From Paracoccus sp. S-4012 (GTDB taxonomy: Bacteria > Pseudomonadota > Alphaproteobacteria > Rhodobacterales > Rhodobacteraceae): a stretch of 64,000 nucleotides of DNA. The stretch lies in assembly GCF_009674885.1 (NCBI RefSeq), contig NZ_WKKA01000001.1:310001-374000 (forward strand). Direction: 5' to 3'. The stretch's first letter is position 1; every line of letters starts with the position of its first letter. Under the pieces are notes generated by a model that saw only the letters and a program-made list of their open reading frames with translations, made no database searches and was not told where the DNA came from. Positions 6,370 through 62,255 of the stretch are shown here, piece by piece. The translations under genes were made by a program, and so were the position numbers.

Positions 6370-6424
6370 CTCGCCCGGCGCCGCGCGCCACCTGTCCCGC
6401 GCACGGGCGTCGAGAGGATCAGCC

Positions 6425-7795
6425 ATGTCCATTCCCCAGCAGGGCGGCGGTCTCATCGAGGGGCGCGCGCAACTGGTCGAATACGTCGCCTCGGGCGAGA
6501 AGCCGCGCACGGACTGGCGCATCGGCACCGAGCACGAGAAGTTCGGCTATCTGCGCGACAGCCTCGAGCCGCTGCCCTATGACGGCCCGCGCTCGATCAA
6601 GGCGATGCTCGAGGGCATGGCGGACCGCTTCGGCTGGACCCCGGTGCTGGAGCAGGACAACATCATCGGGCTCAGCCGCGACGGGGCCAGCGTCTCGCTT
6701 GAACCGGGCGGGCAGTTCGAGCTGTCGGGCGCGCCTCTGGAGACGATCCACCAGACCTGCGACGAGGTGCATCAGCATCTGGCCGAGGTGAAGGCCGTGG
6801 CGGACGGGATCGACACCGGCTTCATCGGTCTCGGCGCGGCGCCGATCTGGAGCCAGGAGCAGATGCCGATGATGCCCAAGGGGCGTTACCGGCTGATGAC
6901 CGACTACATGGGCCGGGTCGGCACCCTCGGCACGCAGATGATGTATCGCACCTGCACCGTGCAGGTGAATCTCGACTACGGCTCCGAGGCCGACATGGTG
7001 AAGAAGCTGCGCGTGGCCCTCGCGCTGCAGCCGGTCGCCACGGCGCTGTTTGCCAATTCTCCCTTCCTCGACGGCAAGCCGAACGGGATGAAGTCGTGGC
7101 GCAGCCATATCTGGCAGAACCTCGACGACGACCGTACGGGCCTGCTGCCCTTCGTCTTCGAGGACGGCTTCGGCTATGAGCGGTGGGTGGACTACATCCT
7201 CGACGTGCCGATGTATTTTGTCTACCGCGACGGGAAATACATCGACGCCCTCGGGCAGAGTTTCCGCGATTTCCTCGACGGCCGCCTTCCCGCGCTGCCG
7301 GGCGAGCGGCCGACGCTCTCGGACTTCGCCGACCACATGACCACCGCCTTCCCCGAGGCGCGGGTGAAGAAATTCATCGAGATGCGCGGCGCCGACGGCG
7401 GCCCCTGGTCGCGCCTCTGCGCGCTGCCGGCGCTGTGGGTCGGGCTGACCTATGACGACGCGGCGCTCGATGCCGCCTGGGATCTGGCGAAAGGCTGGGA
7501 CCACGAGACCCGCGAGGGCCTGCGCCGCGTCGCCGCCCGCGACGCGCTGCAGGGCGAGGCGAACGGATTGAAGCTGCACGACCTCGCCCGCGAGGTGGTG
7601 GCGATCGCCCGCGCGGGGCTGAAGGCGCGCGCCCGGCCGAGCTGGAATGGCATGACCCCGGATGAGACTGGCTTTATCGAGGCGCTCGAGGAGAGCGTCG
7701 AGACCGGCCGCGTGCCCGCCGACGAGCTGCTGGAGAAATACCACGGCGAATGGCAGGGCGACCTCAGCCGCATCTACGCCGAGTATTCCTACTAG
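6425..7795 (+). CDS. gshA: Glutamate--cysteine ligase (alphaproteobacterial/plant type)
   Basis: Joins glutamate and cysteine in the ATP-dependent, rate-limiting first step of glutathione synthesis in the cytoplasm. The 456-residue product belongs to the GCS2-related type shared by alphaproteobacteria and plants. Landmarks are [12 protein letters not shown] near residue 36, [12 protein letters not shown] (substrate-binding Glu and Gln), and [12 protein letters not shown]. The start is ATG 6425, with GAGAGGATCAGCC just upstream. Its last codon TAG lies inside a CTAG palindrome that also supplies the stop of the convergent cupin gene. Confidence 0.96.
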
Positions 7796-11496: not shown

Positions 11497-12333
11497 TCAC
11501 TCCACCAGCGTCGCCGTCACCTTCATCGTCTGCCCGCCCACCTCGTAATCCGCCTCCAGCTCCACCCCCGGCGCGGCGGGCGTCAGCGGGCTGAGCGAGC
11601 CGAGCGAGATCAGGTCGCCGGCCTTCAGCGCCGCGCCGTCCTCGACCAGCCACAGCACCACGTCCAGCGGATGCCCCAGCAGCATCTCGCCGGTCCCCTG
11701 CGCCACTTCAGCACCGTTCGAGTCCAGCTTGACGGTCAGCGCGGCGAGGTCGGCCACCGGATCGGCGAGATCGGCGATCTTGACGCCCGCGCCCATCACC
11801 CCGCGCCACGGCGTGACGCCATAGGCGGTCATCAGCGCGCCCGTGGGCGCCACGCCCTCGACGAAGGCGAGGTCCGGCAACTCGATGAAGGGCCGCACCT
11901 CCTCCAGCGCGGCCGCCGCAGCCTCCCGCGTCGTGGCGGCGGCGAGGGCGTCGGGGTCGGCCACGGTGACGATCAGATCGGCCTCGTAGAAGGGCGTCCG
12001 CGTGCCGGTCAGGCTGACGCTCGCCCCGTCCTCGAGGATCATCGGCGCGAAGAGAGCGCCGGCGACCGGGCCGGGCACGCCGAATCGCTCCTGCGCGGGT
12101 TTCGAGGTGAAGCCGACCTTCCAGCCGACCGGTTCCCCGAACTCGGCCTCGAGAGCGGCGCGCCAGCCGTCATAGGCGCAGCGCGCCTCCTCGGGCGAGG
12201 CGAGCTCGAGGTCGGGGATGGTGCCGCCTGCCGCCCATGCGCGGGCATGCTCGGCCATTTCGGCCGGGGGCGGGCAGGCGGCGAAGGCGGGGGCGGCGGT
12301 GATGAGGGCGAGAATCGTGGTTCGGATGAGCAT
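11497..12333 (-). CDS. Exported 2-keto-4-pentenoate hydratase/FAH-like protein
   Basis: A 278-residue protein with a clear signal peptide (MLIRTTILALITAAPAFA). The mature domain resembles MhpD-type 2-keto-4-pentenoate hydratases: GWKVGFTSKPAQERFG, a metal-ligand-like FYEADLIVTV, ELPDLAFVE, and LGHPLDVVLWLVE. Those enzymes are normally cytoplasmic and act in aromatic meta-cleavage. Secretion is unusual, and the true substrate is unknown. It ends 4 bp after the tusA stop (convergent) and diverges from imuB across about 100 bp. No catabolic partner genes lie nearby. Confidence 0.75.
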   Translation of the reverse strand: MLIRTTILALITAAPAFAACPPPAEMAEHARAWAAGGTIPDLELASPEEARCAYDGWRAALEAEFGEPVGWKVGFTSKPAQERFGVPGPVAGALFAPMILEDGASVSLTGTRTPFYEADLIVTVADPDALAAATTREAAAAALEEVRPFIELPDLAFVEGVAPTGALMTAYGVTPWRGVMGAGVKIADLADPVADLAALTVKLDSNGAEVAQGTGEMLLGHPLDVVLWLVEDGAALKAGDLISLGSLSPLTPAAPGVELEADYEVGGQTMKVTATLVE

Positions 12334-12436
12334 GGCGAGGTCCTCCCGCGGATCAGGATGAAGCCACGCCCTGCGTGCGGCAAGCGCCGCGTGAGGGCTG
12401 GACTCGGGCAGGCTACGGCAGAAACATTAAGGGAAC

Positions 12437-13951
12437 ATGCACACCCGAGTCGCCCGCCGAATCGTCGCCGTCTGGCTGCCCCGTCTCGCGGTCGAGACGG
12501 CCGCCCGGCATGTGCCCGAGGCCTCGCTGCGCCCCTTCGCGCTCGTCACCCGCAGCGGCAGCGCCGACCGGCTGGCGGGCGTGACCCTGCTTGCCGCGAA
12601 GGCCGGGCTTCGGGCGGGGATGAACCTCGCCGATGCCCGCGCGCTGCAGCCGGAACTGGCGACGCGGCCGCACGATCCCGAGGCCGAGGCCCGGGCGCTG
12701 ACCGCGCTCACCCGCTGGGCCGGGCGCTTCAGCCCTTGGGTCGGGCGCGAGGCGGACGGGCTGGCCCTCGACCTCACCGGCAGCGCGCATCTCTTCGGCG
12801 GCGAGGTGGCGGCGATGGAGCGGATCGGCCTCGGCCTCGCCCGCGCCGGCCTCACCGCGCGGCTGGCCGCGGCGCCCACCCGCGGCGCGGCCCATGCGCT
12901 TGCGCGATTCGGCCCGCCCGGCGCCTCCGTGGACGACCTGGCAGACCTGCCCGCGGCCCTCGGCCCCTTGCCGCCCGCCGCCCTGCGCCTCGCGCCCGAG
13001 ACCTGCGAGCGCCTCGCGCGGCTCGGCCTCGACCGCATCGCGCAACTGCTGGAGATGCCGCGCGGCCCGCTCGCCCGGCGCATGGGGCCGGAGCTGATAC
13101 TGCGGCTCGACCAGGCCCTCGGCGCGGTGCCCGAGCCGGTGACGCCCGAGGCGCTGCCGCCGGTCTTCGCCGCGCGGCTGACGCTGCCGGAGCCGATCGG
13201 GCTTCTCGCGGACCTCGCCGCGGGCCTCGAGCGGCTCCTCGCGCGGCTTTGCGAGCGGCTCGAGGCGGCCGAGCGTGGGGCGCTGACGCTGGTTCTGGAG
13301 GCGCGGCGGGTGGACGGCTCGCCCGAGCGGGCCGCGATCCGGCTGGCGCGACCGATGCGCGATCCGGCGGCGCTCGCGCGGCTGATGGCGCCGAAGCTGG
13401 ACGGCATCGAGGCCGGCTTCGGCATCGACGCGCTGCGGCTCTCGGCCCCCCAGACGGGGGCGCTGAGGGCGGTGCAGGCAGAGGCGGCGGGCGAGGCGGC
13501 AAAAGGGGAGGCGCTCGCCGATCTCGTCAGCCGCCTCGGCAACCGGCTGGGTTTCGAGGCAGTCACGGCCTTCCGCCCGGCGGCGAGCCATCTGCCCGAC
13601 CGCAGCTTCCAGATCGTCGAGGCCCGCTTCGCCCCGCCGCCCGAGCCCTGGCACCTGCCCGCACCCCGCCCCCTGCGCCTCTTCCCGCCCGAGCCGGTGC
13701 TGGAACCCGACACTGCGCGCCAGCCCACGGAGCCGCCGGTTCCAGCGCGGTTCCGCTGGCGGCGGATGGTGTTCAGCACCGTCGCCGCCTCCGGCCCGGA
13801 GCGGATCGCCCCCGAGTGGTGGTTCGACCTTCCGGTCTGGCGGACGGGGCCGCGCGACTATTGGCGCGTGGTGACGGAAGAGGGACGGATGCTGTGGCTC
13901 TACCGCGCTTTGGGAGAGCCGGGATGGTGGGCGGAGGGGGAGTTCGGGTGA
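12437..13951 (+). CDS. imuB: Y-family polymerase-like protein ImuB
   Basis: A 504-residue ImuB, the non-catalytic Y-family adaptor that recruits DnaE2 to the beta clamp for damage-induced mutagenesis. The N-terminus IVAVWLPRLAVETA shows the family fold. It lacks the first catalytic Asp of active Y polymerases, as expected for ImuB. LVTRSGSADRL, LADARALQPEL and DGLALDLTGSAHLFGG follow the palm order. Normally imuA precedes and dnaE2 follows it in one operon. Here neither is adjacent: upstream is the divergent hydratase-like gene, and downstream is a gene-poor 450 bp. Confidence 0.9.
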   Translation: MHTRVARRIVAVWLPRLAVETAARHVPEASLRPFALVTRSGSADRLAGVTLLAAKAGLRAGMNLADARALQPELATRPHDPEAEARALTALTRWAGRFSPWVGREADGLALDLTGSAHLFGGEVAAMERIGLGLARAGLTARLAAAPTRGAAHALARFGPPGASVDDLADLPAALGPLPPAALRLAPETCERLARLGLDRIAQLLEMPRGPLARRMGPELILRLDQALGAVPEPVTPEALPPVFAARLTLPEPIGLLADLAAGLERLLARLCERLEAAERGALTLVLEARRVDGSPERAAIRLARPMRDPAALARLMAPKLDGIEAGFGIDALRLSAPQTGALRAVQAEAAGEAAKGEALADLVSRLGNRLGFEAVTAFRPAASHLPDRSFQIVEARFAPPPEPWHLPAPRPLRLFPPEPVLEPDTARQPTEPPVPARFRWRRMVFSTVAASGPERIAPEWWFDLPVWRTGPRDYWRVVTEEGRMLWLYRALGEPGWWAEGEFG

Positions 13952-14348
13952 GGGGGGCGGCACACCGAGCGCATGGCCTTGCGGCTGCGTCCCGCCTGTC
14001 AGCCCAAGCAGACCGATCTGTCCGGGATCAAGCGGGATTGCACCCCGTGCTCAATCCCTCGCGCTGAACACCACGCAGCACGAAGCCAGTGATTCCGTGT
14101 CGCCCGTCACTCTCTACCGTGACCCCGGCGCCACTCAGCAAGACTCCGCCGGCCGGGCAAATGGAACTTGCACTTCCTGCTCCCCGTTCTCCGGTCGAAC
14201 GAAACTCGGGCGGCACCCCAACGACCGCTCCGCGAAGGAACCAGTCAGGGGCCCTGCGAGCGTCATCATCAACCTGGGCTTCGGCCTCGGGCTAGCCCTC
14301 GGATCGGCGCTGCTGCTCGTCTTGTAAGCCGCCAGTCCTGAGACGGAT
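13952..14348. other. Gene-poor gap after imuB
   Basis: About 400 bp with no recognised gene. I saw no start of dnaE2, which would be expected after imuB in many relatives. The only candidate is a 76-codon plus-strand frame at 14097-14327 ending in a hydrophobic segment just before a strong terminator. Confidence 0.5.
14097..14327 (+). CDS. Possible small protein with C-terminal membrane segment
   Basis: A GTG-started frame of 76 codons. The first 50 residues are polar and look random (TLYRDPGATQQDSAG). The last 21 (VIINLGFGLGLALGSALLLVL) form a clean hydrophobic helix that ends 20 bp before a strong terminator hairpin. The terminator supports plus-strand transcription. A shorter start inside the frame is not evident, since no ATG or GTG lies just before the helix. 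It may be a real tail-anchored micropeptide or chance. Confidence 0.3.
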   Translation: MSPVTLYRDPGATQQDSAGRANGTCTSCSPFSGRTKLGRHPNDRSAKEPVRGPASVIINLGFGLGLALGSALLLVL

Positions 14349-14349
14349 C

Positions 14350-14387
14350 AACGAAAACCCCCGGTCCTGCGACCGGGGTTTTTCGTT
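14350..14387. terminator. Bidirectional terminator between imuB side and ftsH
   Basis: A 17-bp stem with a single mismatch (AACGAAAACCCCCGGTC pairing across CTGC with its near-complement at 14371-14387) carries A-runs on one side and T-runs on the other. It can therefore stop transcripts from both strands. It lies 16 bp from the ftsH stop. Confidence 0.88.
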
Positions 14388-14402: not shown

Positions 14403-16301
<1,899 letters not shown>

Positions 16302-61535: not shown

Positions 61536-62255
61536 TCAGAAGATCAGCGCTTCCTCGCCAAACCACTTGCGGATCAGCTCGTTCAGGCTGCCATCGGCCT
61601 TCATCGCCTCGATGACCGCATCCACCTTGGCCTTCAGCTCGGTGTCGGAGGGGCGCAGGCCCATGCCGATGCCCTCGTCGAGCGCGATGGTGTCGCCCAC
61701 GAAGACCAGCTCGCCGCCGCTCTCGGTCACGAAAGGCGCGAGGAAGTCGCGGTCGGCAAAGACCGCGTCGGCCTCGCCGTTGCGGACCGCGGCGATGGTC
61801 TCCTCGCCGGTGGCGAACTCGATCACGTCACCCGTCTCGGCGACGTGGCTGGCCTGAATGGTGCCGGTCTGGGCCGCGATCACGCCGCCTTCGAGGTCGG
61901 CGTCCTCCGACAGCGCGGCATAGGCCGAGAGCGCGGGCGGCAGGTAGGGCTCGCTGAACTGGATCGACTTGCGCCGTTCCTCGTTGATGCTCATGCCGGC
62001 CATGAAGGCGTCGTAGTTCCCGGACAGCAGGTTCGGGATCATCGTGTCCCAGTCGTTCTTGACCCAGGTGCATTCCAGTTCGGCGCGGGCGCAGATCTCG
62101 TCGCCGAGGTCCTTCTCGTAGCCGTCGATCTCGCCCTTGTCGTTGATGAAGTTGTAGGGAGGGTAGGCGCCCTCGGTGCCGATCCGCACCGTCTGTCCGG
62201 CACTCATGCCGGCGCTGAGGGCGACGGCCAGGGCGGCAAGCATCAGGTTCTTCAT
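61536..62255 (-). CDS. Polar amino-acid substrate-binding protein (HisJ-like)
   Basis: A 239-residue periplasmic receptor. A signal peptide (MKNLMLAALAVALSAGMSAGQ) precedes VRIGTEGAYPPYNFINDKGEIDGYEKDLGDEIC. DWDTMIPNLLSGNYDAFMAGMSINEERRKSI resembles lysine/arginine/ornithine, histidine or octopine binders. Two cysteines (EICARAELEC) match the HisJ disulphide. The ligand is probably a basic amino acid or amine. GGGAGAAAACG precedes ATG 62255. Confidence 0.93.
   Translation of the reverse strand: MKNLMLAALAVALSAGMSAGQTVRIGTEGAYPPYNFINDKGEIDGYEKDLGDEICARAELECTWVKNDWDTMIPNLLSGNYDAFMAGMSINEERRKSIQFSEPYLPPALSAYAALSEDADLEGGVIAAQTGTIQASHVAETGDVIEFATGEETIAAVRNGEADAVFADRDFLAPFVTESGGELVFVGDTIALDEGIGMGLRPSDTELKAKVDAVIEAMKADGSLNELIRKWFGEEALIF

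Follow-up and report, generated by a model that had tools for sequence, protein, structure and literature searches.

The window, by which we mean the whole stretch of 64,000 nucleotides that was analysed, belongs to a draft genome of 3.80 Mb in 50 contigs, and contains an imuB gene flanked by a hydratase-like gene and by ftsH (Table 1). An earlier note on this DNA had given 12437–14348 for an orphan imuB next to 400 bp without a recognised gene; the start is correct, but the gene ends at 13951 and position 14348 falls in the gap. The gap itself exists, lying between the convergent imuB and ftsH genes, although it is not featureless and contains a two-way terminator-like hairpin; four terminator-like sites are present in the scanned stretch, compared to a mean of 0.6 in shuffles. 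A small open reading frame (14097–14327, + strand, 76 aa) with a hydrophobic tail and no Pfam match is also located in this gap, 3′ of imuB. An RNA gene was considered for the same interval and rejected, as the six Rfam matches lie on the terminator and all score below their gathering scores. On the other side of imuB, the intergenic region shared with the divergent hydratase-like frame is 103 bp long, and a pattern scan found no sigma-70-like promoter upstream of imuB. The hydratase-like frame matches NCBIfam hydratase models and PF01557, all under their cut-offs, and its signal-peptide-like N-terminus is odd for hydratase-type enzymes, which are generally known as cytoplasmic.

Table 1. Features of the imuB region, with positions numbered from the first nucleotide of the window.
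Feature	Position	Strand	Description
Hydratase-like gene	11497..12333	-	Open reading frame, 278 aa, signal-peptide-like N-terminus; divergent from imuB
Candidate LexA box of imuB, AAACATTAAGGGAAC	12422..12436	+	One mismatch to GAACN7GAAC; abuts the imuB ATG
imuB	12437..13951	+	Open reading frame, ATG start, 504 aa; Y-family protein without two of three catalytic residues
Two-way terminator-like hairpin	14359..14378	.	Pattern scan, both strands; between imuB and ftsH
ftsH	14403..16301	-	TIGR01241 828.9 bits, cut-off 600; convergent with imuB; no functional link assumed

ImuB contains both of the Y-family domains, IMS (PF00817, 42.8 bits, above the cut-off of 23.2) and IMS_C (PF11799, 28.1 bits, above the cut-off of 20.7). 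A search of NCBIfam with ImuB gave no model at cut-off, and the five weak matches are DNA polymerase IV models. When ImuB is used as a query against its own genome the sole match is imuB itself, and one other IMS protein was found, an ordinary DinB (Pol IV) encoded on contig C49, with which ImuB has the Y-family domain in common. DinB retains the catalytic acidic residues and has the C-terminus QLKLFL, whereas in the alignment of the two proteins D20 is replaced by W and E115 by G in ImuB, with D114 kept as D, a loss of two of the three catalytic acidic residues. The same W/G/D pattern is seen in most of the nine other ImuB proteins in this alignment. In a broader comparison with 25 other ImuB proteins the identities are 46–54%, many C-terminal residues are invariant, and the C-terminal block GPERIAPEWW...RDYW is unchanged across all 26 and consists mostly of strands in the predicted model. 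The AlphaFold model (mean pLDDT 81.8, pTM 0.59) is weak at residues 346–358 and 378–415, and predicts a helix at 353–371, in the place where a RecA-NT-like motif would be expected. Compared to the PDB, the model matches Y-family polymerases (best E 3.7e-22), with loose superposition (rmsd 8.4–16.5 in the 50 rows listed).

The absence of imuA and dnaE2 from the immediate vicinity, as reported in the earlier note, is borne out: no dnaE2 match above 100 bits and no imuA match above 45 bits is present in the 10-kb region around imuB (G000:C11:318000-328000, G000 being the window's genome). A contig break is not the cause, because imuB lies far inside a contig of 677 kb, with approximately 322 kb of sequence on one side and 353 kb on the other. 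The note had suggested looking for imuA, dnaE2 and lexA throughout the genome and for a LexA box before imuB; all three genes are present, on contigs C47, C22 and C46, respectively, and a one-mismatch candidate box is found at 12422–12436. Its two options, that the cassette was broken up or that ImuB has partners elsewhere, both fit a single picture in which imuA and dnaE2 occupy two other loci.

The dnaE2 gene (C22:266197-269655) encodes the only DnaE2 over the family cut-off in the genome (NF004225, 1329 bits against a cut-off of 939), and its product matches the model at full length (3–1047 of 1047) with PHP, polymerase, finger, HhH and OB domains; by these sequence matches DnaE2 is evidently present. 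The ImuA-like frame on C47 (262 aa) scores 37.9 bits with NF033429, under a cut-off of 150 that was reached by none of 14 control genomes, and a Pfam search gave no match. As a query it nevertheless has matches at E ≤1e-4 in 109 of 148 other family genomes. It is homologous to the family imuA genes, with identities reaching 48% in the columns aligned for the tree, and we therefore count ImuA as present in the genome. LexA on C46 scores 187 bits (cut-off 111), and C47 also carries a RecA frame of 358 aa, with a match to TIGR02012 (E 1.5e-57) over a piece of 106 aa. The contiguity of imuA, imuB and dnaE2, which is usual although not required, is thus absent, with the three genes on three contigs of 255 to 677 kb and far inside each. 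Neither imuA nor dnaE2 has flanks in common with other loci beyond the genes and antisense frames, with one exception among the matches listed, an ABC-transporter-like frame adjoining imuA (28–41% among those matches), which is a common protein type. There is likewise no sign of a fixed imuB site, as tblastn searches with ftsH, the hydratase, tusA, mobA and tilS against the set of loci compared at that point revealed no neighbour common to another imuB region, the only flank match being a 35% ftsH-like match in L114.

LexA boxes were identified with the pattern GTTCN7GTTC / GAACN7GAAC. Exact boxes are present upstream of imuA (-31), dnaE2 (-86), lexA and recA, and genome-wide there are 74 exact GTTCN7GTTC sites compared to 36 for the reversed pattern. 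The candidate box of imuB overlaps the likely ribosome-binding site. One-mismatch sites are common by themselves (26 in the window, with 31.9 expected), and the imuB box was therefore scored with a matrix built from 111 exact boxes in the imuA and imuB promoters of other genomes, the window's genome being left out. It ranks first among the 127,960 positions of the window with 20.4 bits, the next reaching 13.2 bits; when the bases of the surrounding 103 bp were shuffled 20,000 times no shuffle scored as high, and the box is again first with smaller matrices, of 35 and of 17 sites, taken from stand-alone genes. Within this genome the imuB box is intermediate, below those of imuA (24.6 bits) and dnaE2 (23.2 bits) and above those of recA (18.6 bits) and lexA (18.3 bits). 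Part of its score is supplied by A-richness, which stands out in a window of 70% G+C and against which the local shuffles guard in part. The mismatch falls at a position that is G in all 111 training sites, these having been chosen as exact matches, and given this departure from an invariant base LexA binding may be weak or absent. Taken together, the box sequences predict LexA control of imuA and dnaE2, with exact boxes, and of imuB, with one mismatch. The window's only exact box, at 13739–13753, was rejected; it lies inside imuB, and 0.88 such sites are expected by chance per window. The second-best matrix site in the window, with the 13.2 bits given above, is at 62250 (- strand).

The arrangement in relatives was surveyed in a family sample of 149 genomes, with positions copied by hand from match listings and genes called adjacent within a limit of 1.5 kb that we set. 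Matches to imuB are present in 130 genomes, to dnaE2 in 126 (E ≤1e-220) and to the window's imuA query in 110 (E ≤1e-4); the linkage tally takes in 126 of the 130 imuB genomes, with G033, G087, G090 and G103 being too weak and left out. All three genes are listed in 99 of the 149, and among these imuB is beside both partners in 35, beside dnaE2 only in eight, and separated from each of them by more than 1.5 kb in 56, which makes full separation the most frequent arrangement. In a further 20 genomes imuB is beside dnaE2 and imuA was not found by the window's query, which misses divergent imuA genes, and in another seven dnaE2, imuA or both are absent from the listings. Draft contigs can inflate the count of 56, yet five genomes show the three genes apart on one contig, at 22 kb to 2.3 Mb; G013, G034, G045, G104 and G141 have them split within a single contig each, 3.3 to 4.3 million bases long. 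Neither partner is present in 19 of the 22 imuB regions that were read (7.0 to 17.4 kb, the window's included), the exceptions being G031 and G097, where dnaE2 is close on the other strand, and G004, where imuA is 10 kb away.

The genus presents a different pattern. Among the 61 genomes searched imuB is found in 51 and dnaE2 in 50, and in 47 of the 49 in which both are listed they are within 1.5 kb of each other; the exceptions are the window's genome and G023 (1,975 bp), and the window's genome is unusual for its genus in this linkage. Near-full-length ImuB matches in the genus are at most 55% identical to that of the window, with two short fragments at 56–57%. More than one imuB place is listed in 21 of the 51 genomes, some of these being fragments, and the multiple places hint at gene transfer. 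The oddity implied by the earlier note is thus not supported for the family, where 56 of 99 genomes have imuB apart, and a three-locus form with separate SOS boxes is already published for bacteria (PMC3901139). As to the synteny in sister species that it raised, relatives in the family are split likewise but genus mates mostly are not, and while the same arrangement does recur in the family, the fixed distant dnaE2 site that the note envisaged as a counter-case does not, the distances varying between genomes.

Of the 56 genomes in which imuB stands apart, promoters were read in 21 that were selected by us and not at random. An exact box is located within 250 bp of imuA in all 21, of imuB in 20 and of dnaE2 in seven. 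In a set of 18 genomes (L185, L189, L200-L215), composed of 16 of these 21 together with G031 and G097, an exact box lies within 120 bp of imuA and of imuB in all 18 and of dnaE2 in four. The reversed-pattern control matched no promoter in any promoter set scored by matrix, this one included. A box for each gene therefore does not seem to be general for dnaE2, unless the start codons chosen by the script are off. We also note a shortened DnaE2 match in 52 of the 56 genomes that have imuB away from its partners: it stops short of model position 1000 (of 1047), mostly near 938 and thus close to the beginning of the OB domain. Among these, G098 is cut by its contig, and the full length is kept in the window's genome, G004, G030 and G037.

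Trees of the three proteins are from quick searches with SH-aLRT values only and midpoint rooting, and have moderate supports; they use 23 of 70 named loci, with ImuB rows shorter than 300 aa, DnaE2 rows shorter than 700 and ImuA rows shorter than 150 dropped, and with G177 and G179 omitted. ImuB of the window pairs with that of G030 (SH-aLRT 95), which is cut by its contig end, inside the clade holding most of the cassette ImuB proteins. The window's ImuA also pairs with G030 (90), among stand-alone ImuA proteins (93) and away from the cassette ImuA proteins (97). This pairing is absent from the DnaE2 tree, where the window is sister to a clade of 17 rows, mostly from cassettes (90), and G030 pairs with G037 (91). 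By these three placements a cassette-type imuB and dnaE2 are combined with a stand-alone-type imuA here, as in G030 and G037.

The gene and operator-like sequences very probably reflect an intact, SOS-controlled ImuA-ImuB-DnaE2 mutasome that is encoded at three unlinked loci and co-regulated via LexA. Within a translesion mutasome of the standard type, ImuB would be the catalytically inactive Y-family member that serves as scaffold. In the undamaged cell LexA would occupy 12422–12436, a site that covers the likely ribosome-binding site and adjoins the start of imuB, and would also be bound to the boxes before imuA (C47), dnaE2 (C22), recA and lexA. Upon DNA damage, RecA-driven cleavage of LexA would release all of these genes jointly, after which a complex of ImuB with its two partners would form and the error-prone DnaE2 would be brought to the replication fork. 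The expectation of LexA binding, damage induction, complex formation and mutagenesis derives from the known families, and by the same analogy we predict damage-induced mutagenesis that requires all three genes. So far as sequence tells, imuB would be an orphan by position and not by function.

The systems for comparison are described here from the available text of the papers cited. Caulobacter crescentus has an imuA-imuB-dnaE2 cassette that constitutes an SOS mutasome (PMC1839093), with the same three gene families and LexA control, but in one operon compared to three unlinked loci here. The split form of Mycobacterium, with imuA′-imuB apart from dnaE2 (PMC6511836, PMC3901139), is similar in having unlinked parts under a common LexA, although it has two loci, ImuA′ in place of ImuA, and a different LexA box (PMC3323433). 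The multigene cassette is described as contiguous or split (PMC3919608), and nearly all configurations are reported to exist, among them one in which every gene has a separate locus and SOS box (PMC3901139, citing Erill et al. 2006). This last form is the arrangement observed here, although the available text names no organism, and the imuB box in the window has one mismatch and abuts the start. Rhodobacter sphaeroides and Paracoccus denitrificans are included in a LexA regulon figure (PMC3323433), a plasmid-borne cassette is described in Dinoroseobacter shibae (PMC9426580), and imuB and dnaE2 of Phaeobacter inhibens are termed one operon (PMC10883770); we found no description of the three-locus form in Rhodobacterales in the available text of the open-licence literature. 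The three-locus mechanism is thus ordinary and already published, and its evolutionary interest is modest. An orphan imuB need not signify a broken mutasome, and linkage looks dispensable where LexA can hold the parts in one regulon.

Other readings of the locus can be weighed against a co-regulated mutasome. The imuB box could have decayed, placing imuB outside of the SOS regulon such that ImuB is constitutive while ImuA and DnaE2 are still damage-induced. This would account for imuB being the only gene among imuA, imuB, dnaE2, lexA and recA without an exact box in this genome, and for the window's genome being the one imuB exception among the 21 dispersed genomes read. We nonetheless regard it as unlikely, as a dead operator is not expected to retain the remaining motif, and the site outscores every other position in the window as well as the recA and lexA boxes of the same genome.

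A relic ImuB, or one recruited by a different partner such as RecA or DinB, that does not cooperate with ImuA and DnaE2 from their distant loci is very improbable. The location of the genes on three separate contigs is compatible with such a fate, as are the long end branches of ImuB and ImuA in the trees, where the highest identity to any row is 57% over 373 columns and 48% over 193 columns, respectively. However, the imuB frame is open with residues conserved up to the C-terminus, DnaE2 is full length, LexA-box sequences are present at all three loci, and both the ImuB and ImuA trees, although not the DnaE2 tree, pair the window with the same genome, G030. We give almost no credence to the orphan imuB being an artefact of assembly; the genome is a 50-contig draft, but each gene is deep inside its contig, and the split state recurs on the single contigs of several million bases noted above.

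Of 68 linked imuA-imuB pairs, 57 have a LexA-box sequence within the imuA frame, at its 3′ end (e.g. L261, ∼2117–2131, + strand), and it encodes KNKxGT in 55 of the 57. The codons of the box are mostly rare: GGA, which makes up 6% of the Gly codons of the imuB and dnaE2 genes that were read, occurs in 56 of the 57, and ACA (7% of Thr codons) occurs in 43. The KNKxGT peptide was not found in 12 aligned ImuA proteins from genomes with imuA apart, and in 42 of the 57 pairs the 200 bp upstream of imuA lack an exact box. To judge from these sequences, the in-frame box looks like imuA laid over a pre-existing imuB operator, and is a candidate operator written within coding sequence. We suggest tentatively, and with more doubt than confidence, that the scattered state is old in the family and that the cassettes of the window's ImuB/DnaE2 clade were re-assembled from scattered genes, in which case the window's genome, G030 and G037 would retain the earlier state. 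Against re-assembly, the KNK peptide may itself be under selection, given five linked pairs that encode KNK without an exact box (L110, L174, L112, L113 and G017), and the cassette may have undergone several independent break-ups. With forms that range from contiguous through partly to fully split, the family provides a natural series for ordering the events of break-up or re-assembly.

Finally, ImuB of the genus-mate G023 (L254, 5607–8729, - strand) contains an in-frame insert of about 540 aa before the C-terminal region, composed in part of 189-bp tandem repeats (6391–7218).
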